A DNA stretch of 64,000 bases from Mesonia profundi. Its GTDB lineage: Bacteria; Bacteroidota; Bacteroidia; Flavobacteriales; Flavobacteriaceae. Positions 39,886-63,852 of the stretch are shown in pieces; the first letter of the stretch is position 1, and every line of letters starts with the position of its first letter. The notes beneath the pieces were generated by a model, which ran no database searches, had not been told where the DNA came from, and saw only the letters and a program-made list of their open reading frames with translations. The stretch covers positions 1-64,000 of the forward strand of contig NZ_JAVHUL010000014.1 in the NCBI RefSeq assembly GCF_031085155.1. The letters are read 5' to 3'. The position numbers and the translations under genes are program-made.

Positions 39886-41070
39886 ATGAATTTTGCCGTA
39901 TTGGATTCCAAAGTGCAGGGTTATATCCGTCAAAACGAGCATACCAATATTGCACAATTGATTTTAAAAGGAAGTCCGTTTGCCGGAATTACTCCTGCTG
40001 AGATTGCGCAACAAATAGAAGCTAGAAAAAAAACCAAAAAGAAACTCCCTACTTGGCACACTACAAAGCAAATTTATTTTCCTCCTGGCCTTAATTTAGA
40101 ACAAACTTCTTCTGAAATTACCGCTCAATACAAAGCTTCTTTGGTTACAGGCCAAAAGCTTATAGATTTAACAGGCGGCTTTGGGATTGATAGCTTTTTC
40201 TTTGCGGAAGTCTTAGAACATGTGACCCACGTAGAGCAAAACGAAGAGTTATCGAAGATTGCTAAACATAATTTCCAGCAGCTTTCTAATAAAGAGAACA
40301 CTACTTTTATCTGCGGAGATAGTCTCAATTATCTTGCTAAATCTTCTCATCACTACGATGCTATTTTTATAGATCCCGCGAGAAGAGATGAGCTTGGAAG
40401 TAAAGTTTTTCGCTTACAAGACTGTGAACCCGATGTGCTTTCTCACCTCAAGCTTCTCACAGAAAAATCTGACCTATTATTAATTAAAACTGCTCCCCTG
40501 CTGGATATTCAATTGGGATTAAAAGAACTTGGTTCGGTAAAAGAAATTCACATCGTGGGCGTAAATAATGAAGTCAAAGAATTGCTTTGGCTTATCGATA
40601 AAAATACTCCTCAAGCTCCTGTCAAGCTGATTTGTAAAAACTTCACGAAAGAAAATATAGAAACATTTGAAGCCTTCATTGAAGAAGAATCAAAAGCTAA
40701 AGCGGAATATTCTTCTCCACAACAATTTTTATACGAACCCAATGCTACGCTTTTAAAAGCGGGTTTTTTTCAACTTTTAGCAGAAAAACTACAGCTGAAG
40801 AAAATCGCGCAGCACAGTCATCTTTATACGTCAGAAAAACTTATTTCTTTCCCCGGAAGAAGTTTTAAAATCTTAGAAACGTTTCCGTTTTCCAAAAAAG
40901 AAATGAGATCTTGGAGCAATAAAAAAGCTAATATTACCACCCGAAACTTTCCTATTTCCGTAGAAAGTATTAGAAAAAAGTTTAAAATTAAAGATGGCGG
41001 CGCAGACTACTTATTTTTTACAACCACTCAAGAAGGAGAAAAAATAGCCATTCATACTCAAAAAGTCTAA
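39886..41070 (+). CDS. THUMP-like class I SAM-dependent methyltransferase
   Basis: 394-residue protein with a Rossmann-type methyltransferase core: motif I LIDLTGGFGIDSFFFAE at about 85-101, a conserved acidic residue in HVEQNEE, and the post-motif IFIDPARRDELGSKV (DPAR) that is typical of the THUMP-like family in Bacteroidota. The C-terminus has a THUMP-like domain ending in a beta-rich segment. It probably modifies RNA, which is inference. Its stop overlaps the stop of the convergent PaaK-like gene by 4 nt. Confidence 0.85.
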   Translation: MNFAVLDSKVQGYIRQNEHTNIAQLILKGSPFAGITPAEIAQQIEARKKTKKKLPTWHTTKQIYFPPGLNLEQTSSEITAQYKASLVTGQKLIDLTGGFGIDSFFFAEVLEHVTHVEQNEELSKIAKHNFQQLSNKENTTFICGDSLNYLAKSSHHYDAIFIDPARRDELGSKVFRLQDCEPDVLSHLKLLTEKSDLLLIKTAPLLDIQLGLKELGSVKEIHIVGVNNEVKELLWLIDKNTPQAPVKLICKNFTKENIETFEAFIEEESKAKAEYSSPQQFLYEPNATLLKAGFFQLLAEKLQLKKIAQHSHLYTSEKLISFPGRSFKILETFPFSKKEMRSWSNKKANITTRNFPISVESIRKKFKIKDGGADYLFFTTTQEGEKIAIHTQKV

Positions 41071-42338
41071 GCTTTTCTTAGGTCTAGAAAACGGACTGGT
41101 TTTCGACTTCCTTCAGGAAAAATACTCGCTTTGATTTCCGCTAAGGGAAGCAATTCCAACACCGGAGTTACCCTTAAATTCGCTTTTAAAATTTCTTTTA
41201 ATTTGTGTTGTAGACTTTCTGAAGCTTCCTTCGGAATTACAATCGTAAGCTTATCGGTATCCAATTCATTGGAAGTTACTTGAATTTGATATTCTTCAAT
41301 TTCTGGCAGCTCCATCATTAACTGTACAATTTGCTGCGGATAAATACTGGTTCCTTTATACTTAATCAACTGCTGTTTTCTTCCCAATACTGAAGAAATT
41401 AATGCAGAACCTTTCCCGCAATCGCAAGACGTTTTCATTTTCTTTACCAAATCTCCTGTAGCGTACCTTACCAAAGGCATCGTTTCTACTCCTAAAGTCG
41501 TCACCACCAACTCTCCTACTTCTCCAGGCTTTACTTCTTCTCCGTCTTCATCTAAGATTTCAGTAAAAATTAAATTTTCCGGAACGTGTAATCCAAGATG
41601 TTCTTTACATTCGGTAAAGGCGGTACACATTTCGGTACTCGCATAGGTGGAGAAAAGTTCTAGATCCCAAAGTGATTTAATTTTCTTCCCAAGCGTATTG
41701 AATTGATTATTTTCATCACGTAAAGCTTCTCCGATGCAAATGGCGCCTTTTATAGATGACTTATGAATATCGATTTCGTTGGCTTCTGCATATTTCGCCA
41801 ATTGAATCAAAAAAGAAGGCACCACCACTAAATAGGTGGGTTTAAAACGCTGTATAGAATCCCATTGCAAGGCAGGAGATCCTGCCCCAACCCGAATAAT
41901 TCCTGCTCCAATTTTTCTTAGTCCTAGAAAATAAGCCAATCCAGCAATAAAACGTTTATCTAGGGTTGTGGTAATTTGAACGACATCTTTCTTATCTACG
42001 CCCACTAAGTTGAACGACTGCTCCTCATTAATTGCAAGACGCTGCAAGTCGGACTCATTTAAAGCAAAAGTAACAGGATTTCCCAAGGTTCCAGAAGTGG
42101 TCACATATTCTATAATATCTTGGGATTCTACAGCAATAAAATCATCATTAGATGTGGCTAAATTCTTTTTATGAGTTAATGGTAAGTTTAAAAAAGTGAA
42201 TGCGTTTGCTTGATGCGTATCAAAACCTACTTCTTTAAATAAACGCTGGTAGTAAGGAGAGTTTGCTTGTACATAAACTAGTTGCACAAGTAATTTCTCC
42301 CAAGTTTCGTTGCTGATATGTGATTGCTTTTCTTGCAT
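41067..42338 (-). CDS. PaaK-like adenylate-forming ligase (phenylacetate-CoA ligase family)
   Basis: 423-residue AMP-forming ligase. The P-loop-like motif TTSGTLGNPV (about 81-90), the A5 region STYASTEMCTAF, a GELVVTTL/ YATGDLV stretch and the C-terminal lysine region GRKQQLIKYKGTSIYPQQI are all in place. The CxCGKG segment is also typical of the PaaK family. In this cluster it could activate p-coumarate or a finished polyene acid; the choice is inference. It is the last gene of the pigment operon, starts with a 1-nt overlap (TAATG) with the C45 gene and ends in a 4-nt overlap with a convergent gene. Confidence 0.85.
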   Translation of the reverse strand: MQEKQSHISNETWEKLLVQLVYVQANSPYYQRLFKEVGFDTHQANAFTFLNLPLTHKKNLATSNDDFIAVESQDIIEYVTTSGTLGNPVTFALNESDLQRLAINEEQSFNLVGVDKKDVVQITTTLDKRFIAGLAYFLGLRKIGAGIIRVGAGSPALQWDSIQRFKPTYLVVVPSFLIQLAKYAEANEIDIHKSSIKGAICIGEALRDENNQFNTLGKKIKSLWDLELFSTYASTEMCTAFTECKEHLGLHVPENLIFTEILDEDGEEVKPGEVGELVVTTLGVETMPLVRYATGDLVKKMKTSCDCGKGSALISSVLGRKQQLIKYKGTSIYPQQIVQLMMELPEIEEYQIQVTSNELDTDKLTIVIPKEASESLQHKLKEILKANLRVTPVLELLPLAEIKASIFPEGSRKPVRFLDLRKA

Positions 42339-43996
42339 TAAGATTTACGCTTGCTTTTTTTGATGAGTTTTTCTAGTTTTTCTTTATCGGGAACCGTCGT
42401 AACTTCTAAATCTAAAGCCTTTTCAAAATAAGGCAATGCTAAATCATATTTTTTTTGCTCGTAATAGTACATCCCCACCAATTGATAGGCTTGCCAATAC
42501 TTGGAATTTAAAGCTACAAATTCTTCTAAATCTTCCGTTGATTTTGTAAAGTTCTCTTTCGTTATAGCTGTTTCTAGCTTCCGTTCTTCTATCCGGTATT
42601 GTTCATAATTTTGATAGGCTTCTGTTTCCAAAAAAGGATCGGCTGCTACTTTTAAACTGTCAATTCCTTTCAACGAGAAATCACCTTGCTCAAATTCCGC
42701 GAAAGCGTTCTTGATATCATAAGCGACAAAAGCACCCAGTTGATAAGGATTGGAAGAAACCCACACCAAATTACTTTGCGGCTGAAAAACAATTCCGTGA
42801 TGAGCTAAAAGCTGATTGATGGCCAGTTCATTTCCATAACCCAAAGCCGTATTATTTAGACCTTTTCTATTCCGTAAAATTTCTATCGCTTTACGCGTAT
42901 TAACTTGCTCTTCCTGTTGAAGCAGCTGCTTCATCCGGTTAAACCTAGCTTGCGTGTGACTGTTTTCTATGGTTTTTAGATTTCGTTTATCTTGAGAAAA
43001 AGCTTCACTTTGAAAATGGTTGGAACATACCAATTGGGAAGAATTCTTTACATCATAAACCCCAAAGTTATGAGGAGAAACTTCAATCAAAATCGCTTTC
43101 TTTTCTTTAGCGCTCCCTACCATAATCGATTCTGAAACAAACACTTCCCTACTTTTAGCGATTTCTATAGCCTCTTGGGTCGTGGTGGCATATTGCAAAA
43201 TTTCTCTGGTTAGTAAAGCAATAGGCGTTTTGGCCACCAATGGAATTTTAGATTTTCCAGCATTGATGGTCACGGTAATTCCGTTAGCGTTCATTCCGCT
43301 CACCACGCCAATAAAGCCTGGCCAAGTGTACATCATAAACTTCTGCCCTTCATCTGGGTTAATAAAAGCAATGATTTTTTCTTCGGCAAACTCATCGCCT
43401 ACATAAAAATCGAAGTTTCTCCCTATCAGTAATTCTCCATCTTGGGTATGTTCACCCCAAGTAGCAAAAGATGTACAGCCCACCAACATCAAATCTTTGA
43501 GCGCATGACCAATATCGTGAGCCCCGTGTAAATACAGTTTTAAAATATAAGGATCTGCAAAAGATTCATAGGTCGATGAACTGAACCTAGAAATTCCGTA
43601 AATTTCTTCCTTATATTCTTCTTTAATATGTTTATAAAGCTTCCGGTTGTACCAGTTTACCAGTTTGATCAAAAAATTAAAATAGGAAGGAGAAGAGACC
43701 ATACCCTCTACTTTATCCATAAAAATCTTTTCTTGCTTATTGATGAGTTCTCTGGTGAGGCTTCCTATCGCCACCCCGCGCTCTAACGCATCGCCTTCTA
43801 CATACATTTCCCAAAGGCCTTCTTTATTTTTGCGTAAAGAATTATTTCCTAAACTATAAAAATCTGTAGCTTGTTGAATCCGAACGCTATCGATAGAAGA
43901 AATATCGATATCTTGTGGTCTATTAGATAAAGATTTTTTAGTTCCGCAGGAAGCGAAAACCAAGAGAATTCCGAAAAGGTAGCAGCACTTTCTCAT
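42338..43996 (-). CDS. C45-family Ntn acyltransferase/hydrolase lipoprotein with TPR tail
   Basis: 552-residue lipoprotein: lipobox VFASC with the acylated C17, then an acyl-CoA:6-aminopenicillanate acyltransferase (peptidase C45) domain. The nucleophile is C174 in VGCTSFATWG, which would become the N-terminus after self-cleavage, followed by GRNFDFY. Residues about 470-545 carry TPR-like helices (AYQLVGMYYYEQKKYDLALPYF, split in two helices). It may join or cleave an acyl group of the pigment at the envelope, possibly the aryl-polyene ester; this is inference. Overlaps the CrtI-like gene by 4 nt. Confidence 0.85.
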   Translation of the reverse strand: MRKCCYLFGILLVFASCGTKKSLSNRPQDIDISSIDSVRIQQATDFYSLGNNSLRKNKEGLWEMYVEGDALERGVAIGSLTRELINKQEKIFMDKVEGMVSSPSYFNFLIKLVNWYNRKLYKHIKEEYKEEIYGISRFSSSTYESFADPYILKLYLHGAHDIGHALKDLMLVGCTSFATWGEHTQDGELLIGRNFDFYVGDEFAEEKIIAFINPDEGQKFMMYTWPGFIGVVSGMNANGITVTINAGKSKIPLVAKTPIALLTREILQYATTTQEAIEIAKSREVFVSESIMVGSAKEKKAILIEVSPHNFGVYDVKNSSQLVCSNHFQSEAFSQDKRNLKTIENSHTQARFNRMKQLLQQEEQVNTRKAIEILRNRKGLNNTALGYGNELAINQLLAHHGIVFQPQSNLVWVSSNPYQLGAFVAYDIKNAFAEFEQGDFSLKGIDSLKVAADPFLETEAYQNYEQYRIEERKLETAITKENFTKSTEDLEEFVALNSKYWQAYQLVGMYYYEQKKYDLALPYFEKALDLEVTTVPDKEKLEKLIKKSKRKS

Positions 43997-45549
43997 GAAT
44001 TAGATTTCTCTTTAGGTTCTATATGAGACTGAATCTTTTCCATAATATACTCCAAACCTAAAATTTCTGAGGCCGTTAATACCGCTCCAATAGTCACTCC
44101 TAAAATTCCGTGCATATTGACACTTTGCCCGGTTAACAACAAGTTAGAAATCTTTGTTCTTGGTGCTAAAAAAGATTTCATAGGATGAGCAGCGTCTTTT
44201 ACATAACCGTACATAGAGCCATCTTCACTGCCTATATAATCCCGATATGAAAGAGGCGTTGTCGTGTGAATGGAATAAATAGAGGCTCGTAAATTAGGGA
44301 ACTTCTCTTCTAATTTATCTAAATAAGCTTCTACTTTTGTTGCTTTAAAAGCTTCATAACTTTCCCCACGATCGTGTTTTTCGGCCACGGTATTAAAGCT
44401 TGTTTCCCAAGGCTGCATTTCTTCAAAATGCATATAGGAGATAGAAGTTAAACTCTCTGCAAAGCCTTTATTTTTTTGATCTTCAACCATTCCCATCATA
44501 TAGGCTTCAGGCCAAGATTCTTGAGAGTAATTTTGTCCGTCCCACACCTTCTCCAAGGATTCACTATAATACATATTGTAATTATGATAGGGAACAGTTC
44601 TCTTTTTAAACACTAAAAAGATGCTAAAGGAAGAGATAATATTTTCTTGGGCTTTGATTCGTTTATAATAGGCTTTTCGCAAATTATCTTTCCCAATAAG
44701 ATCTACCGTGGTTTTAGGCTCCATATTGGAAATAAAATAACTCGCTTTATAGGTTTCTCCTGAAGTGGTCGAAATCGTTTCTAATTGCTTGTCTTCTGAA
44801 ATATAAAACTGATCAACTTCTTTGTATTTAAGCACTTTCCCGCCATGGTTTCTAATCTCTTTCACCAAATGTTTGGCAATCTGACTTCCCCCGCGAATAC
44901 AGCGCCAAGCACTTTGCATATAAGAGTTGACCGACAGCGCGTGCACGTAAAGTGGTGATTTTTCATTCCCCGCATATAAGAAATTGGTACCTGCTAAAAC
45001 GGCTTGTAATTTTTTATTATTAGTGACAGATTCAATGTATTCTTTGGCGTTAACCGAAAGTAATTCGGGTTCGTTAGCGTAGGGTTTTCCTAGTTTTAAA
45101 TTATACATCGGGAAGTTTTCACACACCTCCTGAAGCTTTTTAGTATACGCGATTAGGGCTTCTTTTTCTTCTGGAAAATAGACCGATAATTGCTTTATAA
45201 AATTATCATAACCTTGCGCGTGTGGGTATTCTATTTCATCATCGCCAATGCAAACCGTGTCATAATGGTCCATATGCATACGCTCAATATGAAGCTTATC
45301 CATAATTCCCAAATACTTAAAATAGGTATATAAATTCTCCCCTTTGGCCAAGCCGCCAATGTAATGAACGCCCGTATCAAATATTTTTTTATCCCGAACA
45401 AAAGTCTGCAGATTACCTCCAAACTGATTATTCTTTTCGAGCACGCAAACCTTGTAGCCTTCTTTGGCTAAAATGAGGGCAGAAACCAATCCGCCAAGAC
45501 CACTTCCCATCACGACCACATCGTAGGTATTATTCTTCATCGCTTGCAT
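43993..45549 (-). CDS. CrtI-like FAD-dependent oxidoreductase (phytoene desaturase-related)
   Basis: 518-residue flavoprotein with the N-terminal dinucleotide-binding fold VVVMGSGLGGLVSALILA and ELEKNN-type second motif (VCVLEKNNQFGG), and the C-terminal family motif near TGQSVNMHGILGVTIGAVLTASEI. Homologues include carotene desaturases and isomerases and retinol saturases. No phytoene synthase or cyclase is near, so it probably acts on the polyene chain of the aryl polyene rather than on a carotenoid. The exact start is open: ATG at 45549 or 45540, both overlapping the upstream gene. Confidence 0.85.
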   Translation of the reverse strand: MQAMKNNTYDVVVMGSGLGGLVSALILAKEGYKVCVLEKNNQFGGNLQTFVRDKKIFDTGVHYIGGLAKGENLYTYFKYLGIMDKLHIERMHMDHYDTVCIGDDEIEYPHAQGYDNFIKQLSVYFPEEKEALIAYTKKLQEVCENFPMYNLKLGKPYANEPELLSVNAKEYIESVTNNKKLQAVLAGTNFLYAGNEKSPLYVHALSVNSYMQSAWRCIRGGSQIAKHLVKEIRNHGGKVLKYKEVDQFYISEDKQLETISTTSGETYKASYFISNMEPKTTVDLIGKDNLRKAYYKRIKAQENIISSFSIFLVFKKRTVPYHNYNMYYSESLEKVWDGQNYSQESWPEAYMMGMVEDQKNKGFAESLTSISYMHFEEMQPWETSFNTVAEKHDRGESYEAFKATKVEAYLDKLEEKFPNLRASIYSIHTTTPLSYRDYIGSEDGSMYGYVKDAAHPMKSFLAPRTKISNLLLTGQSVNMHGILGVTIGAVLTASEILGLEYIMEKIQSHIEPKEKSNS

Positions 45550-48500
45550 TTTCTCTCCTCAAAATTAATAATCCTTCTTCCTTTTTCTGATTTGTGAATC
45601 TGTTTAGTTCAGGAAAATCCTTGGTCTCTTCCGCTCCCACCACATAAATGTTGTCTACTTGCGTTATGTTCAAATTAGTCAACTCTCTTAGATTTTTTCG
45701 ATCTACAATAAGGTGAACCGACTTGTTTACAGCAGCTTCCGTAAGCTCACTTAAATTTAGGTGTAGATGTTTGGCAGAAAAACGGGTTGTGGCTATGTTT
45801 TTATCTGCTTCTTCCAAAAATAAGGCATTTACTTTTAAGAACGGACGTCTTATCTGATGATAAAAAGACCACATCCCGTAAGAAGAATCTATGATGTTCA
45901 CTGTTTTCTCGTCTTTTAAATACTGTGATATTTTAAGATGAGCTTCTATATGCGTCTTATATTCTTTGTTTATTTCAGTAAAATAAGAAGTATAACGGTA
46001 ATTAGAAAGCAAATACTTTCTAAAATAGTTTTCTTGCTCTATTTGATCTTTCAATTCTTGGTATTCTTTACGGAAATAAGCGCTTATATTCTTGGTTCTC
46101 GCCCGGTAGCCTATACCAAATTCCTGAGAATCTGGCTGAATTTGAGGAAGGCATTTTAAAGTAATCTTTCCATCGTGAATCACAAAATCTCCTTTAGGAA
46201 GTACTTCAGAATTACCGTGAATTAAAATAGGCGTGATAGGAATATTTAGTTTTTCGGCCAGGTAAAAAGCACCTTTATGGAAGCGTTTCATTTTATTATT
46301 GAAAGACCTGCTGCCTTCCGGAAAAGCAATTAAAGAGTAACCTTCCTCTACTTTTTGCTGTAAGTGCTCTACGCCGTCATCAATCCCATTACTTACCGGG
46401 AAAAATCCAGCTAGACGAACTGCTTTTCCAAAAACGGGCGAGTTGTACACCCAGTCATTCACTAAAAAAACCATTTTAGGATGCAGTTTTCCTAAAGATA
46501 AAATATCTAAAAAAGAACTATGATTGGCGATGAGAATGCTGGGTTGCTTCCAAATTTCATCAGAAAACTGAAGCTGTTTTTTTTCTACAAAAGGATTACT
46601 TCCTAATACAGAGCTCATTAAAGAAGCCACTACTTTATGAAAGGCTAACATCTTTTTCTCTTTACGGAAAGGCAAAATAGGAATTAATAACACGCTCAAC
46701 ACACTTACTAAAAACGCGCCTACTCCAAAATAAACAAAACTTAAAACTGCCATTAAAAAGCTTCTCCATTGCAAAGGCGTAAGTCCGTTTTGAGTTCTAT
46801 AATTAATCGCTAATCGAAACAACCAAGGCTGAATGGTAAAAGAAACCAAAGCTGCGGTAAGTACGCCAATAATAGAAACGGTAGCAATAGAAGTCAAGGC
46901 GGGATGTTTAGCGAATATGAGTACGCCCATTCCCAACAACGTAGTGATCACCGATAAAACAATAGAACTTCTATAAGTGGTTAACTTGGCTTTAGTCTCC
47001 TCGTATTCTTGGCGTAAACCGTGGGTAATGAAAATACTATAATCGATTCCCAATCCAAAGATAAAAGTAGAAATGATAATATTGAGAATATTGAACTGAA
47101 TTCCCAACAAATACATACAAAATAAAGCGATGACCCAAGTAATACCAATGGGTAAAAGTGTAATGATGACCAATTCAATTTTTCGAAAAGAAAACCATAA
47201 AATGAGAAAAATAGCCATAAAGGAATAACTAATCAGCTGACTAAAATCTGATTGTAAACTCCCTAATAAAGATTCATTGAGGGCCTTTTTATCAATGCTA
47301 AGTACATTTTTTTCTTGGTCAATAAAGTTTCTAAATTCTTCTTGTTGAGCATCTGTCACCTGCACTATTGAGACTACGGTACTCCATTTTTCTTTTTCAG
47401 AATCAGTTAAAAATTCGTCTAGGAATAAATTTGAAACTTTCTTGTACTTGTTTAAGTAAATGGTTTTAAAATCTTTATTTACAGCTGTATAGAATTTATT
47501 AAACGTAGAAGTTTTAAAGCCCACTTCCTTTCCTTGGGCTTTTAGATTTTCGGTTAAAGAATCTTTTCTTTCTGCGTTCCAAAAATTTTTCCAAGCATTA
47601 ATTTTTTGTTGTTGATCTTCTTCAGAAATCACAATTCCGCCTAAACTACTAAAGTGTTTTATCTCGTGATTGGACTCTAGTGTTTCTAGTTTTTTAAATA
47701 AAGAATGATTGGTTTGTAAAGCCTCATCTATTCCCTCTCCGTAAGAAACCACATAAAGTGATGCTGCAGAAGACTGAGTGGTTTCTTCCAATCGTTGTTC
47801 CGCTTTTACCAATTCTTGAGGTTGGAAATTTAAACTCGATAGATCATCATCAAAGTCTACTTTTTGAAAGAAAAATAAACCGACTACAAAAAAAGCAAGC
47901 ACGACACCCACTAGCCATTTATTGTTTTCTAAGGAAATAGCCGAAAATTGGTCCAACCAATTTGATTTTAAATTTTCCTTTACTTTAGGTTGATACAGTT
48001 GCGGAATAATTACCAGCGCCGCAATCGCAGATATGAGTACACTTATCGCTGCGAAAACCCCCAAATCGTTTAGTGCTTCACTCTTTACAAAAAGCAAGCA
48101 GAAAAAGGCTGTAGCTGTAGTAGCGCTACTCATTAAAATGGAAGAAGAGATTTCTTTATACAAGCTTTTAGTACTGCCGTGTTCGCGAGCATGCGTAAGA
48201 ATATGCAAGGCATAATCTAAGGTGATGCCCAATAGAATAGATCCAATTCCAAGAGAAATTAGGGATATTTCAGTCTTAAACATTCCCAGAATCCCAATGG
48301 CAAGCGTTCCACCAATCAACGTAGGAATAAATAAAATGATTGGAATGTATAATTTTCGGTAGAATGAAATAAGAATCACCAGCAATAAAACCAAGGCAAA
48401 ACCTATGGTGTATTGTATGTCTTGCTTAATCTGTTGCGCATTGGCGGCTGCGTACAACATAGAACCAAAAAGACTGGCGCTCACCTCGTCGTGAGTCGCA

Positions 48501-50425: not shown

Positions 50426-50428
50426 AGG

Positions 50429-50794: not shown

Positions 50795-50800
50795 CTTCGT

Positions 50801-53831: not shown

Positions 53832-53834
53832 AAA

Positions 53835-55028: not shown

Positions 55029-55280
55029 CTATGCGTTCTTTTCAATAAATTGCGCCAAGGTTTCTATGCTGGTAAAAACTTCTTTTCCTTGTGCCGGATC
55101 GGTTAATTTAATGCCGAAATCTTTCTCCAACATCACGATTAATTCGAGTGCATCAATAGAATCTAAGCCTATTTCATCTCCAAATAAAAAGTCGTCATTT
55201 TGTATATCTTCCACACTTAAATCTTCCAAATTAAGTTGTTTTATAATCTTTTCTTTTAGTTCTAAACGTAAATCACTCAT
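55029..55280 (-). CDS. Acyl carrier protein (first of two)
   Basis: 83-residue ACP. The phosphopantetheine site is S41 in GLDSIDALELIVMLE, with the usual four-helix length and acidic character. It carries the growing polyene as a thioester. It overlaps the 196-residue gene upstream by 4 nt. A dedicated ACP inside the cluster is typical of aryl-polyene systems. Confidence 0.93.
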   Translation of the reverse strand: MSDLRLELKEKIIKQLNLEDLSVEDIQNDDFLFGDEIGLDSIDALELIVMLEKDFGIKLTDPAQGKEVFTSIETLAQFIEKNA

Positions 55281-55867: not shown

Positions 55868-57000
55868 TCCGTTTCCTTTTTTAGAAGCATGGCAAAATTA
55901 CAACCCCCAAAACCTGAAGCGGTTTTTAAAGCGATTTGTAAAGACTTATGCTCTGTGGTTGTAATCATATTAAGGGCTTTGCTAGTCCCCTGATTTTTAT
56001 AACCTAAAGATTTAAAAACTCTATTTTCCTGCAAACTTACTTGACTAAAAATAAGCTCTAATAAAGCGGAAGCACCCAAAGTGTGACCGTAATAAGCTTT
56101 TAGACTATTCAACGGAGTATGTTGTAATCCCAAACGATGAAAAGCTATAGATTCCATTTCGTCATTAAAAAGCGTCGCCGTTCCGTGAGCCGAAATGTAA
56201 TCAATTTCACTCGCTAAAATACCAGCTTCTTGAAGCGCTTTTTGAACGCTTAGATATAAACCTTCTCCGGTTCGTGACGGCCCCGAAATGTGATTCGCAT
56301 CGTTGGCGGTGGCTTCTCCTATAATCTCAATTGCTTCTTCTTTTGGCTTTACGGAAGTCACCCAAACTGCTGCTGCAGCTTCTCCAATATTGATTCCTGT
56401 TCTATCTTTTGAAAAAGGCTCACAAACTCCTTTCGCCAAAGCTTGAAAAGAATTAAATCCCGTTAAGGTAAATTCGCTTACCAAATCTCCTCCCACTACC
56501 ACTGCGTGATCATAGGTTTTATTCTGAATTAATTTTTTAGCAACACTAACTGCAAGTCCGCCAGAGATACAGGCATTGGAAACCACAATTGGAGTTTCAG
56601 GCAATTTAAAATAGTGCTGAAGTCTTTTTGCAAGTTGAGGAAGCTTTGCTCTTTCTTTTGAAAACGGATTTTCTTCCGCCAAGGCATCTACATTTCCTTT
56701 GGTGGTGGCAATAATAAAAACTATTTTTTCTTTCGGAATTTCTTGGTGCGCTTGAAGCACTTCAGCAACTGCCAAGATCATCATTTTCTCTAATTTGGTA
56801 TAAGCTTCTGCATTTTCCAGCCTTTTAAAACGCTCTTGAAGTTTAATTTCAGAAATCTTTCCTGCTACATAATCTCCCATAAACGGAGAATGATAGCTTT
56901 GCATGGCAGATTTGCCCTGAGTTACTGCTTCTATATTTTCTTGGGAAGTGGAACCTAGCGGAGATACAATTTGGTGATTCTCTAAGTAAACTTTTCTCAT
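55864..57000 (-). CDS. Beta-ketoacyl-ACP synthase (KS2)
   Basis: 378-residue ketosynthase counted from the ATG at 57000, which gives a 4-nt ATGA overlap with the thioesterase gene and the usual start MRKVYLENHQIVSPLG. A longer in-frame ATG at 57024 adds eight residues without homology. Catalytic residues: C144 in SNACISGGLA, His in SAHGTATLFND and His in YGHTLGAS. The ACIS elbow differs from the common ACSS of KS1, suggesting a different substrate. Confidence 0.9.
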   Translation of the reverse strand: MRKVYLENHQIVSPLGSTSQENIEAVTQGKSAMQSYHSPFMGDYVAGKISEIKLQERFKRLENAEAYTKLEKMMILAVAEVLQAHQEIPKEKIVFIIATTKGNVDALAEENPFSKERAKLPQLAKRLQHYFKLPETPIVVSNACISGGLAVSVAKKLIQNKTYDHAVVVGGDLVSEFTLTGFNSFQALAKGVCEPFSKDRTGINIGEAAAAVWVTSVKPKEEAIEIIGEATANDANHISGPSRTGEGLYLSVQKALQEAGILASEIDYISAHGTATLFNDEMESIAFHRLGLQHTPLNSLKAYYGHTLGASALLELIFSQVSLQENRVFKSLGYKNQGTSKALNMITTTEHKSLQIALKTASGFGGCNFAMLLKKETE

Positions 57001-57440
57001 TCCAGCCCATGTTTTTCTTTCCACTTTCTAAAAAAGTCGGGAATGCTTAATGAAAGTTGTCCTTCTTTATCGGTAAACACCTGAACGGTTTCTCCTGTAC
57101 AAACCAATTCTTTCCGCTGATTAAAAACTTCGTATTTAAAATGAATTTTAGCCGCTGGTGTATTGTAAAATGTAGTTTTTACGGTAGCTACATCTTCATA
57201 TTTTAAAAAGAGCTTATGCTCACAATAGGATTTTACGACTGGAGTTGCAAAACCTTCTTCGTACATTTTCATATAAGGAATGCCGTACGAGCGATTAAAA
57301 GCTTCTCTCCCATCTTCAAAATAAGTGATGTAATTGCCATGCCAAACCACCTGCAAAGGATCGCAGTCCTTAAAACGAACCCGCACTTGGTATTCATTTA
57401 CCAAGTTGGTAGGCTGGGAATTAAATCTTTCTTTGATCAT
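56997..57440 (-). CDS. 4-hydroxybenzoyl-CoA thioesterase-family acyl thioesterase
   Basis: 147-residue hotdog protein of the 4HBT/YbgC type: FKDCDPLQVVWHGNYITYFEDGREAF carries the catalytic Asp and the conserved Tyr/Phe/Glu strip. It could release the polyene chain or p-coumaroyl from CoA or ACP; the substrate is not known. It overlaps the dehydratase gene and KS2 by 4 nt each, a translationally coupled arrangement. Confidence 0.9.
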   Translation of the reverse strand: MIKERFNSQPTNLVNEYQVRVRFKDCDPLQVVWHGNYITYFEDGREAFNRSYGIPYMKMYEEGFATPVVKSYCEHKLFLKYEDVATVKTTFYNTPAAKIHFKYEVFNQRKELVCTGETVQVFTDKEGQLSLSIPDFFRKWKEKHGLE

Positions 57441-57880
57441 GAAGAAGGAGCTATTGCTGTTTTTATTTCCGCGGAGGCGATCATATTTCCCGCTGCATCT
57501 AATACTTCAGCTTTAGATAATTTAATACCCATAAACTCTTGTATGAAGTTGACTTTTGTGAAAATTTCTTCACCTACTTTAGGAATACGGTAAATATGCG
57601 CTGTTTTAATCGCCCCAATAAAACCTATTTCTATTTTGGTCTCTTGGGCGAGGTAATCGAGATAGCCTTTTTGCAAGGCGATACTTTGCGCCATATTTTC
57701 TAGGAGACCCGCTTCAGAAAAATAGTTTTCTTGATTAAGAATATTATCTTCTTCTATCTTAAGACCCGTTAGCACCTGCTCTTCATTGGCCTCATACAAT
57801 GCGCTTAGCATCACAAAAGGTTGTTTTTGTGGAATAAGTTGTTGCACTAATGCAGATTCTATAAGGAGCTCTTTTATCAT
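57437..57880 (-). CDS. ApeP-like 3-hydroxyacyl-ACP dehydratase
   Basis: 147-residue hotdog protein whose start (IPQKQPFVMLSALYE) and the segment SEAGLLENMAQSIALQKGY match the ApeP-type dehydratase family of aryl-polyene clusters. The E-N-M-A-Q motif is where FabZ-type enzymes carry their catalytic Glu. It would dehydrate the 3-hydroxyacyl intermediate to the conjugated enoyl in each cycle; the absence of any enoyl reductase in the cluster fits retention of the double bonds. Confidence 0.87.
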   Translation of the reverse strand: MIKELLIESALVQQLIPQKQPFVMLSALYEANEEQVLTGLKIEEDNILNQENYFSEAGLLENMAQSIALQKGYLDYLAQETKIEIGFIGAIKTAHIYRIPKVGEEIFTKVNFIQEFMGIKLSKAEVLDAAGNMIASAEIKTAIAPSS

Positions 57881-58758
57881 GATTTATATTCTTTCCAAAA
57901 ATCGTAAAAATTAAACCATTGCGCAGGGTATTTTCTTACCATTTTTTCTAAATACTGAGTGTATCCCAATAAAATTTCTTGAGTCGAGTACTTAGATGGC
58001 ATAAATCTTCTCGCGTAAAAGTGATAATGGAAATTTTTCTCTCGCATAATATAGGCAAATAAGATAGGCAACTTCTTTTGGGCTACCAGCTTAAAGGGGC
58101 CTTGAAAAAACTCGGTTTCTTTTCCTAGAAAATCTGCTTTTAAATGCTTTCCTTCTCCACTCCTATCTGCTGCAAAAACCAATAATTCGTTATTTTGAAT
58201 CGCATCGTTAATTTTAAATACATGAGACATATCATCTTTGATGACAATAAGCTTCAGATGCGTTTCTCCAGTTACAGAGTTAAGGTAACTCTTGATTTGT
58301 TCATGCTCTGTATCTGTAACCACCATATTGATATGAATAGGTTCACTGGATACTTCCGTAAAGAAAGACCTAGAGATATTGAAATTGCCAATATGTGCGG
58401 TAAAAATAATCCCGCCTTTGCCTTCCTCTATCAGTTTCTTTATATGCTGAATTCCATCAAACTCAAAAGTAAATTTTTTTCTAAGTCCTACCGTTACGGC
58501 AACCCGATCTATTAAGGTTTTACCTAACTGCACATAAGAGTTGAAAATTCCTGCTAAGGATTTCATTTTAGAAAACTCTAGTCGGTTATGGTAATAATTA
58601 TAGATGTTTTTACTTGTGGTATACGAAGAAAAAATAAAGTAGAATGCCACAAAATAAAGTAGACCGTAAGCAGCTCTTAGACCAAGGTGTTTAATAAAAA
58701 ATATAAAAATTTTATATCCTAGAACACTGCCCTTAGATTGTCCTTTCCAATCTGCCAT
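57877..58758 (-). CDS. LpxL/HtrB-like membrane acyltransferase
   Basis: 293-residue protein of the lysophospholipid/Kdo2-lipid A acyltransferase superfamily with one N-terminal membrane helix. The catalytic box reads AHIGNFN, H122-x4-N127, where typical members have Asp or Glu. Later conserved stretches are present (AADRSGEGKHLKADFLG, FQGPFKLVAQ). Aryl-polyene clusters regularly carry such enzymes, which attach the pigment to a lipid. The Asn may mean altered chemistry; this is inference. It overlaps the dehydratase gene by 4 nt. Confidence 0.85.
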   Translation of the reverse strand: MADWKGQSKGSVLGYKIFIFFIKHLGLRAAYGLLYFVAFYFIFSSYTTSKNIYNYYHNRLEFSKMKSLAGIFNSYVQLGKTLIDRVAVTVGLRKKFTFEFDGIQHIKKLIEEGKGGIIFTAHIGNFNISRSFFTEVSSEPIHINMVVTDTEHEQIKSYLNSVTGETHLKLIVIKDDMSHVFKINDAIQNNELLVFAADRSGEGKHLKADFLGKETEFFQGPFKLVAQKKLPILFAYIMREKNFHYHFYARRFMPSKYSTQEILLGYTQYLEKMVRKYPAQWFNFYDFWKEYKS

Positions 58759-58763
58759 GGTGG

Positions 58764-59009
58764 TTACTGCTTAAGCTTGGTATCGATAAGACTATAAAAG
58801 TCTTCAAAAGTATCAATATTCACAAAGTCTTCTCCTAAAAGCTTTATTCCAAAACTAGACTCAATGGCGACCACTAAATCTACATAATCTAAACTGTCTA
58901 AATCTAACGTATCTTTTAAATTCGCTGTTGTTGAAATTTCACTTTGTTCTACTTCGAACTCATCCACCAAAAAATCATCTATTTTTGAAATGATTTCACC
59001 TCTTTCCAT
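58764..59009 (-). CDS. Acyl carrier protein (second of two)
   Basis: 81-residue ACP with S39 in LDLDSLDYVDLVVAIE as the phosphopantetheine site. It is acidic and lies between KS3 and the LpxL-like acyltransferase. Two distinct ACPs (this one with DSLD, the other with DSID) hint at separate priming and elongation roles. Confidence 0.93.
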   Translation of the reverse strand: MERGEIISKIDDFLVDEFEVEQSEISTTANLKDTLDLDSLDYVDLVVAIESSFGIKLLGEDFVNIDTFEDFYSLIDTKLKQ

Positions 59010-59026
59010 TGATTAAGATTTTACTG

Positions 59027-60250
59027 TTATTGCTTTACCTTCTGGATGACTAAAGCAGAATTGGTTCCGCCAAACCCAAAAGAATTGCTCAAAAATACAT
59101 CAATTTTTGCGTTTAACGTTTCCTTAACTAAATTTAATTTGGCAGAATCTTCATCGGGCTCGTCTAAATTGATATTGGGAGCTATAAAATCGTTTTGCAT
59201 CATAAGTAGAGAATAGACCACTTCACTCGCACCAGCCATCCAACATTCGTGCCCTGTCATCGATTTTGTAGAGCTTACAAAGGGTTTTCCCTTTTCAAAA
59301 ACTTCGTGAATAGCTTTGGCTTCATTGGTATCTCCTATGGGCGTAGAAGTTGCGTGGGCATTGACATAAGTAATTTTTTCGGCAGAAATATTTGCCATTT
59401 CTAGCGCGCGTTTCATCGCTCGCGCTGGTCCTTCTTGATTGGGCGTAGAAATATGATCGCCATTAGAAGAAAAACCATAGCCGGTAACTTCTCCTAAAAT
59501 AGTGGCACCTCTTTTTACAGCCGACTCATAGCTTTCGAGGAATAAAGCAGCACTTCCGCCGCTAGGCACTAATCCGTCTCTATCTTTATCAAAAGGCCGA
59601 CTTGCTTTATGGGGCTCATTTTCTCGTGGAGAAAAAACACCTAAACCATCAAAGCTCCCCATAGCATACTCGTTAATTTCTTGAGCTCCGCCACAAAGAA
59701 TATAGTCTTGTAAGCCTTGCTTAATAAGCAAATAAGCCATTCCAATACTATGAGAACCGCTAGCACAAGCCGCACTTACGGTAAGATTGATTCCTTTGAG
59801 TTTAAAGATGGTAGCCAAATTCATACTGCATGTAGAATTCATCGATTTAAAAACGCTTCCAGAGCCTACCAAGGTCGTATCTTTTTTGTCTCTAATTTTA
59901 TCGGTAACTTCTATCACCGAATTGGCCGTACTATCGTTCCCAAAAAGAATTCCTATTTCTTGGGTATCTAAAAATTCTTGATCTATTCCTGCTTGTTCAA
60001 ATGCTTGTTGGGAGGCTACATAAGCGTATTCTGTCTCGGCTCCTATGCTAATGCGTTGTCTTCGGGTGAGTTCTTTTTTAAGGTTGAGCGGCGGAACCAC
60101 TCCTGTTAACGCCGATCTATAACCAAAATCTTTTCGTTTTTCATCATATTTAATTCCAGATTTTCCCGCTCGCAAAGAAGCAGTCACTTCTTCTCGATTG
60201 GTTCCTATACAAGAATAAATTCCCATACCTGTAATGACAACTCTTCGCAT
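59027..60250 (-). CDS. Beta-ketoacyl-ACP synthase (KS3)
   Basis: 407-residue KAS II-type ketosynthase. C162 in SAACASGSHS, His in NAHATSTPIGD and His in TGHECWMAGASE give the full triad; NAHATS replaces the usual NAHGTS/T. The WMAGASE stretch resembles KAS I/FabB-type enzymes. It probably elongates the polyene or starts it on the coumaroyl primer; which cannot be decided. It lies between FabG (5 nt) and the second ACP (17 nt, the largest spacer in the operon). Confidence 0.92.
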   Translation of the reverse strand: MRRVVITGMGIYSCIGTNREEVTASLRAGKSGIKYDEKRKDFGYRSALTGVVPPLNLKKELTRRQRISIGAETEYAYVASQQAFEQAGIDQEFLDTQEIGILFGNDSTANSVIEVTDKIRDKKDTTLVGSGSVFKSMNSTCSMNLATIFKLKGINLTVSAACASGSHSIGMAYLLIKQGLQDYILCGGAQEINEYAMGSFDGLGVFSPRENEPHKASRPFDKDRDGLVPSGGSAALFLESYESAVKRGATILGEVTGYGFSSNGDHISTPNQEGPARAMKRALEMANISAEKITYVNAHATSTPIGDTNEAKAIHEVFEKGKPFVSSTKSMTGHECWMAGASEVVYSLLMMQNDFIAPNINLDEPDEDSAKLNLVKETLNAKIDVFLSNSFGFGGTNSALVIQKVKQ

Positions 60251-60255
60251 AAATT

Positions 60256-60987
60256 TTATGAATAAATTCCTCCGTTTATATTAATGACTTCCCCTGTAAT
60301 GTATGAAGATTTTTTGGAAGCTAAAAAACTAACCAAATCGGCTACTTCTTGTGCTTCTCCAAATCTATTGGCAGGAATCAGTTTTTTCAACTCTTTTTCA
60401 TCCAAATCTTTAGTCATATCTGAATGGATAAAACCTGGTGCCACCGCATTTACCGTTACTTTTCTTTTGGCGATTTCTTGCGCTAAAGCTTTGGTAGCAG
60501 CAATTACCGCTCCTTTTGCGGCAGAATAATTGGTTTGTCCTGGCGTGCCTTTCATCCCAGATAAGGAAACCATGTTAATCACTCTTCCGTAGCGTTGTTT
60601 TAGTAAAGATTTTAAAAAATATTGCGTCACATTATAAAAACCTTGTAAGCTGGTTTGGATCACGCTATTCCAATCTTCTTCTGGCATCCACATAAAAAGT
60701 CCGTCTTTAGTGATTCCAGCATTATTCACCACCACTTCTATTTGCGCATCGGGGTTTTCTTTCATCCACGCATCAAAAAATTGAGTGGTTGCTTCTTTAT
60801 TAGCCACATCAAATTGAAGTGCCTCACATGCTACTCCGCACGCCTCTATTTCCGCTTTAGCGTTATGAGCCGCTTCTTGATTAGACTTAAAAGTAAAAAG
60901 AATATGGTAATTTAAATCTTTTGCCAATTGTAAAGCGATGGCTTTCCCTAAACCTCTAGAACCGCCAGTAATTATTGCGTATTTCAT
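60256..60987 (-). CDS. fabG: 3-oxoacyl-ACP reductase (FabG/SDR)
   Basis: 243-residue SDR enzyme from the ATG at 60987: TGGSRGLGKAIA (NADPH site), NNAG, catalytic S in MVSLSGMKG, and Y-x3-K in TNYSAAKGA, followed by NAVAPGFI. An in-frame ATG at 61017 would overlap the end of the ammonia-lyase gene and add a polar leader, so it is rejected. It reduces each 3-oxoacyl-ACP in the polyene cycle. It starts 4 nt after the ammonia-lyase stop. Confidence 0.93.
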   Translation of the reverse strand: MKYAIITGGSRGLGKAIALQLAKDLNYHILFTFKSNQEAAHNAKAEIEACGVACEALQFDVANKEATTQFFDAWMKENPDAQIEVVVNNAGITKDGLFMWMPEEDWNSVIQTSLQGFYNVTQYFLKSLLKQRYGRVINMVSLSGMKGTPGQTNYSAAKGAVIAATKALAQEIAKRKVTVNAVAPGFIHSDMTKDLDEKELKKLIPANRFGEAQEVADLVSFLASKKSSYITGEVININGGIYS

Positions 60988-60991
60988 GTTG

Positions 60992-62530
60992 TTATTTTTT
61001 TTCGCGGTAAGCTTCATTTTCCAATAAAAACTCTTTTACCTTTTTTATATACGGGTAAATAGCTTCGTCCGTTTTGAAAGGAGGAACGATTTCTTTTAAT
61101 TGCTCAAGAATAGAAACAGAAGCCGATGATAATTTCTTTCCCTTTTCGGAAAAATAAGCTGCTTGGGTTAATGCAATCAACTGAATTGCCAATACCTCGT
61201 ACGCATTATCAATAACCGTTTTGGTCATATTTGCCGCGTTGGTTCCCATACTCACCACATCTTGATTGTCGTTATTATTAGGAATGCTATGAATATACAT
61301 CGAATTGGATAGCGCCTGATTTTCTGCTGTCGTCGAAACTGCTGTAAATTGCATTCCTTGAACTCCAAAATTAAGTCCTAAAGTCCCCAAGTTGATAAAT
61401 GGCGGAAAAAGTTCGTTCAGCTTAGCGTTGAGCAAGTAATTAAGCTGTCGTTCTGCCAACATACTCAGTTTGGTAATACCTAACTTTAACTTGTCCATTT
61501 CTAGAGCGATATAATCGCCGTGAAAATTCCCTCCGTGATATATTTGCTGTGAAGCCACATCTACAATAGGATTATCGTTGGCAGAATTTACTTCTTCTAT
61601 CAAAATAGATTCTGTATTTTTAATCGTATCTTTTATAGGTCCCAAAATTTGAGGCACACAACGCAAACTATAATATTCTTGTACTTTTTCTTTAAATACT
61701 TTCTCTTCCTTGGGATTATACAAATGCTGAATCCTACTTTTTATACGTCCGCTATCCTTTAAATGAGTCCGCATTAATCCTGCAATTTCTTGTTGTCCTT
61801 TGTGCTTTTTGGCGGCATTAAGCTGTTCAGAAAAATGATCATCATAAGCTTCTACCAATTCATTGATTAACGAACTTGCAAAAACCGACCAGTTTAAAAG
61901 ACGTTTAGCGTAAATGGTATTCACAATTCCAATTCCCGTCATAGCTGAAGTTCCGTTCATAAGTCCCAGTCCTTCCCTACCTTTTACTTGAATAGGCTGT
62001 ATTCCTTCTTGCTTAAAAACTTCTTGTGTATCGCAGCGTTTTCCTTGATAAAAAACCTCTCCTTCCCCAATAAGAACCAAAGCCAAGTGTGCCAATTGCA
62101 CTAAATCTCCGCTTGCTCCTACTCCGCCATGCTCAAAAATTAAGGGAGTAATCTCTTTATTTAAAAGCTGAGTCATCACTTCGATGACGCTTTGATGCAC
62201 TCCAGATTTCCCTAGACTTAACGTATTTAAACGCGCCAACATTAAAGATTTTACATACAAAGGCTCCATAATCTTCCCAGCGCCCGAAGCATGACTTCTT
62301 ATAAGATTATACTGTAGGGCAGTTAGGTCTTGAGTTTCTATTTGATATTGAGCCATAGGTCCAAACCCGGTGTTTACCCCGTAGATCACTTTGTTTTTGG
62401 CAAACTCTTGTAAAAAAGTAAAACTTTCTTCTACCCTATCTTGTATGGATGAATCCCAAGAAATTTTCTTATTCTCAAATAAAATCTTATAAAAGTCCTG
62501 AAATGTAATCTCTTCTTTAATTGCTATCAT
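60992..62530 (-). CDS. Tyrosine ammonia-lyase (aromatic amino acid lyase)
   Basis: 512-residue MIO-dependent lyase. The MIO triad A139-S140-G141 in GGVGASGDLVQL, Y50 in VIYGVNTGFGPMAQY and the selectivity loop NLIRSHASGAG (S79-H80) are visible. As I recall them, the loop and large stretches match the characterised Flavobacterium johnsoniae tyrosine ammonia-lyase closely, so TAL rather than histidine ammonia-lyase is the better name. It would turn tyrosine into p-coumarate, the aryl starter of flexirubin-type polyenes. No hut genes are nearby. First gene of the pigment operon, with a promoter at 62567. Confidence 0.9.
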   Translation of the reverse strand: MIAIKEEITFQDFYKILFENKKISWDSSIQDRVEESFTFLQEFAKNKVIYGVNTGFGPMAQYQIETQDLTALQYNLIRSHASGAGKIMEPLYVKSLMLARLNTLSLGKSGVHQSVIEVMTQLLNKEITPLIFEHGGVGASGDLVQLAHLALVLIGEGEVFYQGKRCDTQEVFKQEGIQPIQVKGREGLGLMNGTSAMTGIGIVNTIYAKRLLNWSVFASSLINELVEAYDDHFSEQLNAAKKHKGQQEIAGLMRTHLKDSGRIKSRIQHLYNPKEEKVFKEKVQEYYSLRCVPQILGPIKDTIKNTESILIEEVNSANDNPIVDVASQQIYHGGNFHGDYIALEMDKLKLGITKLSMLAERQLNYLLNAKLNELFPPFINLGTLGLNFGVQGMQFTAVSTTAENQALSNSMYIHSIPNNNDNQDVVSMGTNAANMTKTVIDNAYEVLAIQLIALTQAAYFSEKGKKLSSASVSILEQLKEIVPPFKTDEAIYPYIKKVKEFLLENEAYREKK

Positions 62531-62566
62531 AATATGCGAAAGTTTGTTAAAATCTTTCTAGTTTCG

Positions 62567-62595
62567 CAAATGTAGTATATTTACCAAGCAAACAA
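62567..62595 (-). promoter_or_regulatory. Promoter of the 21-gene pigment operon
   Basis: On the minus strand TACATTTG (TAnnTTTG) lies at 62574-62567, 36 nt before the TAL start, with a TTG at 62595-62593 and an 18-nt spacer. It is the only convincing promoter in the 71-bp divergent gap; a weaker TATATTTA could serve the halogenase gene on the other strand. Confidence 0.6.
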
Positions 62596-62601
62596 AATAG
62601 A

Positions 62602-63852
62602 ATGAAAAAAGAAAAGGTAGACGTGGCCATTATTGGAGCGGGCCCTTCGGGAACTGTTTCTGCTTCTTATTTGCAACAGCAAGGGATTGAGGTGAAAGTG
62701 ATTGAAAAGTCAAAGTTTCCTCGCTATAGTATTGGCGAAAGCCTTATTCCGCGATGTATGGATAATTTTGAAGAAGCAGGATTATTAGATTGCCTTAAAG
62801 CACAAAATTATCAAGTTAAAACTGGAGCTCGTTTTATTAAAGATGGTTTAGTAAGTGATTTTGATTTCAGTAAAAAATTTGGAGAAGGTTGGGATTGGAC
62901 TTGGCAAGTGCCTAGAGATCATTTTGATCATACTCTAGCCCAAGAATGCATTCGTAAAGGAGTAAAAATTGAATTTGAATCTCAAGTAACCGATGTTAGC
63001 TTTACGGAAGAAAATGCCACTTTGACTATTGAAAATAAACAACAAGAAGTTTATGAGTTGGAAGCTAAATATGTGATAGATTCTAGTGGTTTTGCCAGGG
63101 TTTTAGCCCGAATTCTAGATTTGGAAGCTGCTCCTAGAATTCCGCAACATTCTTCTATTTTCACCCAAGTAAAAGACCTTAGAAGACCCGATGGCTCTGA
63201 AGGCGAAGCCATCACTTTTGATATTATAGAACAAGAAGTGTGGTTTTGGTACATTCCTTTTTCTAACGGAAATACGAGTATCGGTTTCGTGGCAACTACC
63301 GAGTGGTTTGATCAATTTAAAGGAACTACTACCGAACAATTTACTCAAATGCTTTCCTTTACCGAAAAATACTATCCACAATTTAAAGAGCTTCCATTTT
63401 TATTTGAGCCTATACAGGTGAAAAATATAGCAAAGAATGTGACTAAACTCTATGGAAACCGATTTGTACTTACGGGCAACAGCGCCGAATTTTTAGATCC
63501 TGTATTTTCTTCGGGGGTTTCTTTTGCTACAGAATCTGGTCTTTTGGCAGCTAAGCTCATCATCAAAGAATTAGCAGAAAAAGAAGTCGACTGGCAAAAA
63601 GCCTATGTAGATCATATGCAGGAAGGTGTAAAAGTATTTTCTACCTACGTCAAAGAATGGTATAATGGGAATTTACAAAAGATTATCATGCACCAAGAAC
63701 ACAACTTAGAAATCAAAGAACAAGTCTGTGCTGTGTTAGCCGGTTATGTATGGAATCAAGAAAATCCTTTTGTCAAAAAGCACGATCGCTTGGTAAAAAA
63801 CATCGCCCATTTAATAGATATGGAAAATAATCAGAAAAATAATAAGACATAA
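62602..63852 (+). CDS. Flavin-dependent halogenase-type FAD protein
   Basis: 416-residue flavoprotein of the tryptophan/phenol halogenase superfamily. It has GAGPSG at 12-17 (FAD), GESLIP at 45-50, and K73 in VKTGARF, at the place of the catalytic lysine of phenolic halogenases. The WxWxIP motif is W214-F-W216-Y-I-P219 and the FLDPVFSSG flavin motif is at 297-305. The intact WxWxIP box argues for halogenation rather than hydroxylation. It would chlorinate the phenolic ring of the aryl polyene. It is divergent from the operon and ends about 130 nt before a tRNA gene. Confidence 0.85.
   Translation: MKKEKVDVAIIGAGPSGTVSASYLQQQGIEVKVIEKSKFPRYSIGESLIPRCMDNFEEAGLLDCLKAQNYQVKTGARFIKDGLVSDFDFSKKFGEGWDWTWQVPRDHFDHTLAQECIRKGVKIEFESQVTDVSFTEENATLTIENKQQEVYELEAKYVIDSSGFARVLARILDLEAAPRIPQHSSIFTQVKDLRRPDGSEGEAITFDIIEQEVWFWYIPFSNGNTSIGFVATTEWFDQFKGTTTEQFTQMLSFTEKYYPQFKELPFLFEPIQVKNIAKNVTKLYGNRFVLTGNSAEFLDPVFSSGVSFATESGLLAAKLIIKELAEKEVDWQKAYVDHMQEGVKVFSTYVKEWYNGNLQKIIMHQEHNLEIKEQVCAVLAGYVWNQENPFVKKHDRLVKNIAHLIDMENNQKNNKT

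Follow-up and report, generated by a model that had tools for sequence, protein, structure and literature searches.

A flexirubin-type aryl-polyene operon in Mesonia profundi that has probably lost its dialkylresorcinol module

The window analysed here is a stretch of 64,000 nucleotides of Mesonia profundi (Flavobacteriaceae; assembly GCF_031085155.1, contig NZ_JAVHUL010000014.1, positions 1 to 64,000), and its subject is an aryl-polyene (APE) operon of the flexirubin type that lacks the dialkylresorcinol (dar) genes. The window sits on contig C6 of a 3.08-Mb assembly of 76 contigs that is 98.94% complete (genome G000). The operon comprises exactly 21 genes according to the gene calls, all on the minus strand, from 41067 to 62530 (21,464 bp), with spacers of -28 to +17 nt between neighbours; this agrees with the original prediction, made from the sequence alone, of 21 minus-strand genes over some 21.5 kb with no spacer above 17 nt. 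The operon starts with flxA (60992-62530) and ends with flxY (41067-42338), whose end overlaps a convergent neighbour gene by 4 nt. None of the 21 frames is interrupted, they are tightly coupled, and their arrangement is likely that of a single transcription unit. The region is far beyond chance, because relatives have orthologues of every one of the 21 genes, and in a conserved order. The best-scoring named relatives of FlxA belong to Flavobacteriaceae such as Aquimarina, Gillisia and Salegentibacter, with 66-70% identity.

Domains were called with Pfam and NCBIfam cut-offs, the NCBIfam scan covering 20 of the 22 proteins of the locus (thioesterase and ACP2 left out), and five products scored above the equivalog cut-offs that NCBIfam sets for proteins of flexirubin loci: FlxA, FlxB, FlxY, LolA2 and LolB2. 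The starter of flexirubin loci, derived from tyrosine, is represented by both of its enzymes. These are FlxA, a tyrosine ammonia-lyase (NF053541 FlxA_rubin_TAL, 846.2 bits, cut-off 700; Pfam Lyase_aromatic), and FlxY, a 4-coumarate--CoA ligase (NF053551, 589.3 bits, cut-off 520), and both scores support the predicted flexirubin-type operon primed with p-coumarate. A second aromatic ammonia-lyase of the same genome (G000:C13:37333-38703) reaches 354 bits with the FlxA model, against the cut-off of 700, and is probably an ordinary histidine ammonia-lyase.

The genes of chain building are those of APE clusters: ketosynthases (KS) with a Cys-less partner, acyl carrier proteins (ACP), a ketoreductase and dehydratases, one of the latter recognized only by a weak FabZ match. 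Three ketosynthases carry the active-site Cys, namely KS1 (59027-60250; Pfam ketoacyl-synt), KS2 (55864-57024; Pfam) and KS3 (53835-55028; Pfam). KS4 (52770-53831; Pfam Ketoacyl-synt_2) is a ketosynthase-like protein without this residue, resembling a chain-length factor; the site was found by eye, and the two columns inspected in 40 orthologues contain no Cys (H/Q/N, then S/G/A/D/N/V). The remaining elements are ACP1 (58764-59009) and ACP2 (55029-55280), both with PP-binding matches, the short-chain dehydrogenase/reductase FlxB as ketoreductase (60256-61017; NF053542, 403 bits, cut-off 340), a FabA/FabZ-like dehydratase (50429-50794; FabA 25.9 bits, cut-off 23) and the weak candidate, a putative hotdog-type dehydratase (57437-57880; FabZ model 23.7 bits, below its cut-off of 113, and no Pfam match over cut-off).

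The genes for attachment and export known from APE clusters are also present. They comprise an LpxL/HtrB-type acyltransferase (57877-58758; Lip_A_acyltrans 44.9 bits, cut-off 22.3), a GT2 glycosyltransferase with DUF2062 (49220-50425; Pfam), an MMPL/RND (resistance-nodulation-division) exporter fused to a PlsC-type acyltransferase (45530-49219; Pfam MMPL and Acyltransferase), the periplasmic carrier LolA2 (51390-52019; NF053544, 217 bits, cut-off 125) and LolB2 (50801-51412; NF053540, 181 bits, cut-off 60). The C-terminal 225 residues of the MMPL-PlsC fusion gave no match in the domain search. Other members of the operon are a 4HBT thioesterase (56997-57440; 4HBT_2 63.3 bits), a polysaccharide deacetylase family protein (52006-52776; Polysacc_deac_1 124.6 bits), a CrtI/CrtD-like oxidoreductase dependent on flavin adenine dinucleotide (FAD; 43993-45549; NAD_binding_8 and Amino_oxidase, with all CrtD/CrtI-type models below their cut-offs), an autoproteolytic acyltransferase or hydrolase of the AAT/C45 family (42338-43996; Pfam AAT; C45_proenzyme 233 bits, cut-off 85) and a conserved protein of 196 residues (55277-55867) with no Pfam or NCBIfam match over cut-off and with orthologues at the locus in 40 of 45 genomes. 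The optional genes of some relatives, for the methyltransferase FlxJ and for cupins, were absent from the window operon in the locus comparison.

A promoter-like site on the minus strand precedes flxA (62567..62595), with TACATTTG at 62567-62574 and TTG 18 nt upstream, at 62593-62595. The former fits TAnnTTTG, the Bacteroidota promoter element of the -7 type. In the gap between flxA and the divergent gene, TAnnTTTG was found towards flxA in 33 of 40 loci, against 3.6 expected from mononucleotide shuffles (45 loci minus three without a divergent gene and two with a gap below 50 nt). The strict two-part motif was identified in 6 of 42 loci, where 0.53 are expected, and two of the six lie far downstream of the position occupied in the window. 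The predicted site at 62567 is retained. That it is the one promoter is less sure, as the strict motif has two further matches within the operon, near 60390 and near 43090 (0.86 sites expected in all).

The absence of darA and darB from the operon, already noted in the original prediction, extends to the assembly. The DarB model gave no match over cut-off in the window genome, the best being a FabH-like gene with 36 bits, and neither DarH nor DarA was found in its assembly; the relatives served as positive controls. In a family of 199 genomes (here and below, the genome group taken as Flavobacteriaceae), DarB passed the cut-off in 32, all of them among the 45 FlxA-positive ones. DarH did so in 33 of these 45, being missing from exactly the other 12, and DarA matched in 33, with one copy cut by a contig end, one with an in-frame stop and one, in G188, reduced to a fragment of 49 residues. 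Twelve FlxA-positive genomes, each from its own genus, are thus without DarB, DarH and an intact DarA (dar-less genomes): G000, G013, G039, G078, G087, G093, G097, G100, G111, G154, G188 and G193. G037, with DarB cut at a contig end and DarH present, is counted neither among these 12 nor among the 32. Members of a "DarB" gene cluster in G013 and G097 were discarded as DarB, being genes of 331-332 residues on the other strand with about 20% identity to it. Frames of 616-628 residues with 392-400 bits, below the DarB cut-off, occur in four genomes (G184:C5:268714, G019:C1:345537, G001:C12:543156 and G003:C82:34942) and appear to be a longer relative of DarB. The window genome also contains two odd FabH-like genes, on C7 and C38.

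The original prediction had offered two outcomes, a plain aryl polyene or resorcinol genes located elsewhere. The second would be a normal flexirubin locus split in two, with a true flexirubin as product, as published for Chitinophaga pinensis (PMC3992019) and as seen among the relatives in G023, where DarB lies about 560 kb from FlxA. It is very improbable here, given that the searches of the window genome for DarB, DarH and DarA were empty while the same DarH and DarA queries matched in 33 of the 45 genomes each, and that the lack is shared by 12 genomes, including the single-contig assemblies G078, G087, G100 and G154. The plain aryl polyene is the favoured outcome.

For comparison, up to 40 kb around flxA were taken from 44 relatives (less in G003, G015, G022, G037 and G177, where contigs end), and the locus genes were grouped by reciprocal best hits. 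The typical order in dar-positive loci is FlxA, a WG-repeat protein, FlxB, KS1, ACP1, the acyltransferase, DarA, DarB, a dehydratase, a protein of 150 residues, DarG, DarH, an ATP-binding cassette (ABC) ATPase and permease, and the thioesterase onward, with a protein of 165 residues preceding GT2; DarG, DarH and the domain names come from family models, and DarA from its place and size. The window has this same gene order with the dar block cut out. All 12 dar-less loci also lack DarG, the ABC ATPase and permease, the 165-residue protein and an intact WG-repeat protein, and 18 gene families, including the divergent gene, are represented in every one of the 12 (the deacetylase of G039 by a member outside the operon). 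The G188 locus retains pieces of the 150-residue protein, DarA, the WG-repeat protein and the 165-residue protein.

A second set comprises 80 named loci, the best-scoring of 580 relatives and thus not an even sample. Sorted on the 10 kb after flxA, 62 were dar-positive, 13 dar-less and five too short. The dar-less ones belong to Salegentibacter (3), Christiangramia (3), Gillisia, Zunongwangia, Marixanthomonas, Winogradskyella thalassocola, Tenacibaculum caenipelagi, an uncultured Aquimarina and a Maribacter metagenome bin (L080), the last with broken pieces of darA and darB at the locus. Because G188 and L080 hold eroded dar fragments, the loss of dar is seen in progress. The WG-repeat protein did not hold as a strict part of the module, being kept in two of the 13 named dar-less loci (L074 and L080) and missing from seven of the 62 dar-positive ones; by this distribution it is tied only loosely to dar.

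Four dar-less genomes (G000, G039, G087 and G188) keep KS1, ACP1, LolB and CrtD at the locus, and in the other eight these are gone. For KS1, ACP1 and CrtD the absence was judged at the locus; LolB2 is missing from the whole genome in these eight, and also in G053 and in the dar-positive, 84%-complete G015. The eight reduced loci share one gene order, apart from FlxJ and cupin genes, which are optional, and a single gene inserted in G154. Of the 32 dar-positive family genomes, 31 have KS1 at the locus, the exception being the scattered locus of G023, and both KS1 and ACP1 are present in 62 of 62 named dar-positive loci. The association of the KS1-ACP1-LolB-CrtD set with the resorcinol branch is weak, because it depends on two loss events only.

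Outside the family the assignment of this set to the resorcinol branch could not be established, since all four readable DarH-less loci (G260, G380, G398 and G471) keep KS1, ACP1 and CrtD, and three of the four have a LolB-like match; a further one, G327, is cut by a contig end. These four FlxA-positive genomes belong to other families, so dar-less loci have arisen there as well. The 36 kb retrieved from the DarH-positive G295, also outside the family, show no ACP1, and no match to KS1 there exceeds 191 bits. In G224 (L263/L264) and G445 (L269/L270), additional ACP, KS and KS4-like copies come after the dar block, which suggests that the resorcinol branch of these two has an elongation set of its own.

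The state with dar is likely the older one, because DarH was identified in 39 of 44 FlxA-positive genomes of the class outside the family (the control G001 and two members of the family are not counted; four of the 44 score 683-693 bits with FlxA, just below its cut-off). In a concatenated tree of 15 locus proteins (41 loci, 4956 columns; G023, G015, G037 and G022 left out, root set by the analyst) the dar state changes four times: in the group of G000, G100 and G111, in a clade of seven that includes G039, in G087 and in G188. All four changes are forced by starred branches. On the same tree the KS1 pattern corresponds to two losses, each inside a dar-less clade and after the loss of dar.

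The preferred reading, given a probability of about 0.8, is that the window contains a flx aryl-polyene operon whose dialkylresorcinol module has been lost, and that the cell makes a plain aryl polyene anchored in the envelope, not a flexirubin. The predicted "half of a flexirubin locus" would be so by descent and probably not by product. In the proposed pathway FlxA would deaminate tyrosine to 4-coumarate and FlxY would convert this to 4-coumaroyl-CoA, two steps demonstrated for the enzymes of C. pinensis (PMC3992019). The ketosynthases with the Cys-less KS4, the ACPs, FlxB and the dehydratases would then extend it to a 4-hydroxyphenyl-polyene acid, to be freed by the 4HBT thioesterase. The LpxL-type acyltransferase, the GT2-DUF2062 protein and the PlsC domain may join the acid to a (glyco)lipid, and MMPL, LolA2 and LolB2 would transport the product to the outer membrane. 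The proposal for export and anchoring draws on the APE genes of E. coli (PMC8253772) and on LolA2 and LolB2, which a 2025 study placed in flexirubin loci and for which it proposes a transport of pigment or of lipoproteins (PMC11885536). Chain building, lipid anchoring, expression and the absence of a resorcinol ester are the parts of this reading that we infer.

Several points weigh against it. Pigment, anchor and expression are predictions from the genes, and the lipid anchor is proposed by analogy with the APE genes of Escherichia coli, where the anchor itself is not known (PMC8253772). In an assembly with this number of contigs and this completeness, there is a small chance that a dar cluster escaped detection. 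The 41-locus tree is a quick search under a simple model, with branch support from SH-aLRT (a Shimodaira-Hasegawa-like approximate likelihood-ratio test) only, and 11 of its 41 rows deviate in composition; the tree of FlxA alone (66 rows; 21 of the 46 additional FlxA genes from the class were offered to it) requires 11 changes and gives little resolution. Finally, Gramella (now Christiangramia) echinicola DSM 19838 and Gramella portivictoriae DSM 23547 were reported to have no flexirubin-type pigments and were described with only carotenoids (PMC4891872). Both are dar-less at the locus (L070 and L118, respectively), and their operon may be silent or its product may have been missed. The lack of flexirubin-type pigments speaks for a loss of flexirubin, but it fits a silent operon too.

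The same flexirubin-negative strains would be expected if the operon were a relic on its way out, with dar going first and the rest unexpressed or decaying. Such decay would also account for the loss of KS1, ACP1, LolB and CrtD from eight of the 12 dar-less loci, for the absence of LolB2 from those eight whole genomes and for the displaced deacetylase of G039. It would further account for the genus-mate G053, which has neither FlxA over cut-off nor LolB2, so that the pigment locus varies within the genus of the window genome. Against this, the 21 frames of the window are intact and closely packed, 18 families persist in 12 of 12 dar-less loci and the eight reduced loci hold to one order; a relic is improbable, though less so than a split locus.

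A broader proposal goes beyond the window and is tentative, more likely to fail in some part than to hold as a whole. The dar module (darA, darB, darG, darH, the ABC pair and the 165-residue protein, with the WG-repeat protein loosely attached) would be a detachable unit that makes a flexirubin from a lipid-anchored aryl polyene and was dropped at least four times in the family with the polyene pathway still working. The window would represent an early stage, with KS1, ACP1, LolB2 and CrtD, later dropped as a set by two dar-less clades. DarH would be the missing synthase of the polyene-resorcinol ester, and the AAT-family protein would have another job. The presence of DarH follows darAB in 45 of 45 FlxA-positive genomes, and its NCBIfam name is that of a BtrH-related acyltransferase; the ABC pair, DarG and the 165-residue protein follow dar at the locus too. 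The AAT-family protein seems a poor candidate for the joining step, judged by presence and absence, because none of the 12 dar-less loci has lost it.

The divergent gene (62602..63852, plus strand) encodes an FAD-dependent protein of the halogenase or monooxygenase type, with Trp_halogenase at 88 bits and FAD monooxygenase families also matching. The original prediction included a possibly chlorinated product. Chlorination is known among flexirubins (PMC3992019). The Pfam Trp_halogenase model is over its cut-off, and W-x-W-x-V/I-P in 42 of 42 and K-x-G-A-x-F in 32 of 42 orthologues are motifs that are presumably linked to halogenases. However, among solved structures the protein is much nearer to 3nix, an uncharacterised flavoprotein (444 bits), than to the best named halogenase (126 bits), and the best NCBIfam halogenase model reaches 155 bits, far below its cut-off of 900. 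The gene also adjoins flxA in 42 of 45 loci, with or without dar genes, and so says little about a special product here. Because of this closeness to 3nix and its place beside flxA regardless of dar, the gene by itself does not mark chlorination, and a chlorinated aryl polyene made with this enzyme is possible, though less likely than not.

Among known systems the operon resembles the flx and dar flexirubin loci of Flavobacterium johnsoniae and C. pinensis (flxA-flxY; PMC3992019), with the FlxA, FlxY and FlxB equivalogs and LolA2/LolB2 in the operon. It differs from them in being without darA, darB, darG, darH, the ABC pair, the WG-repeat protein and the 165-residue protein. It also resembles APE clusters without resorcinol genes (PMC7440613 Table 4; E. 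coli, PMC8253772) in its acyltransferase, glycosyltransferase, thioesterase, ACP, RND-type exporter and Lol-like proteins, the likeness to E. coli being one of gene kinds, and is unlike them in the starter made from tyrosine via FlxA/FlxY and in its apparent descent from a dar-bearing locus. The arcuflavin genes of Azoarcus (PMC3949708) include polyene genes of the same kinds and a separate dar cluster, which has a KS and ACP of its own and whose darA, darB, BtrH-like gene and ABC pair correspond in their annotation to the block that the window lacks; in contrast to the window, the starter there derives from chorismate and the dar cluster is present.

The APE set of marine Flavobacteriia (PMC5932025) shares CoA ligase, AAT, GT2, LolA, ACPs, synthases and ammonia-lyase with the window. 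Its authors show darA/darB apart from, and without bias of, the APE genes, and the available part of that paper does not describe that the wider dar module was lost or that this happened repeatedly. In Flavobacteriaceae, APE clusters identified by antiSMASH have been counted separately according to whether they contain resorcinol genes (PMC7440613 Table 4), and APE-only clusters in this family are thus already in print and the kind of locus is known. What is new is that the whole dar module was lost more than once, with remains at some loci; no earlier description of this was found among the open-licence papers listed by the searches.

Flexirubin is a chemotaxonomic marker of Bacteroidota, commonly tested by the colour shift in alkali. 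If the repeated loss of dar is true, strains negative for the marker may still make a polyene, and the annotation "flexirubin" from FlxA/FlxY alone would be wrong for 12 of the 45 FlxA-positive genera sampled. The potassium hydroxide test has been reported as unspecific (PMC6767994), and a plain aryl polyene could not be told from a flexirubin by it with certainty. The dar-less loci are natural knock-outs that separate the genes of polyene and export from those of the resorcinol ester, and they single out DarH as the candidate for the joining step.

On C6, past the window, a tRNA-Ser (about 63985-64070, located by eye) and a tRNA-Pro (64093-64168, ARAGORN) are followed by a tyrosine integrase and further small genes (L003 407-4373), so an integrated element probably adjoins the pigment locus. 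Repeats of the tRNA-Pro of at least 14 nt were not found in the contig. A tblastn search of plasmids with the exporter matched 63 records, only two of them over at least 80% of the query, with 33-36% identity. Integrase genes of the same family were identified near the locus in G087 and G100. Horizontal gain of the locus beside the integrase was considered; the copy in G100, which adjoins the divergent gene, is compatible with either order of events. G100 and G111, the nearest to the window locus in the tree, share six gene families on the side of flxY, an indication that the shared position is old.

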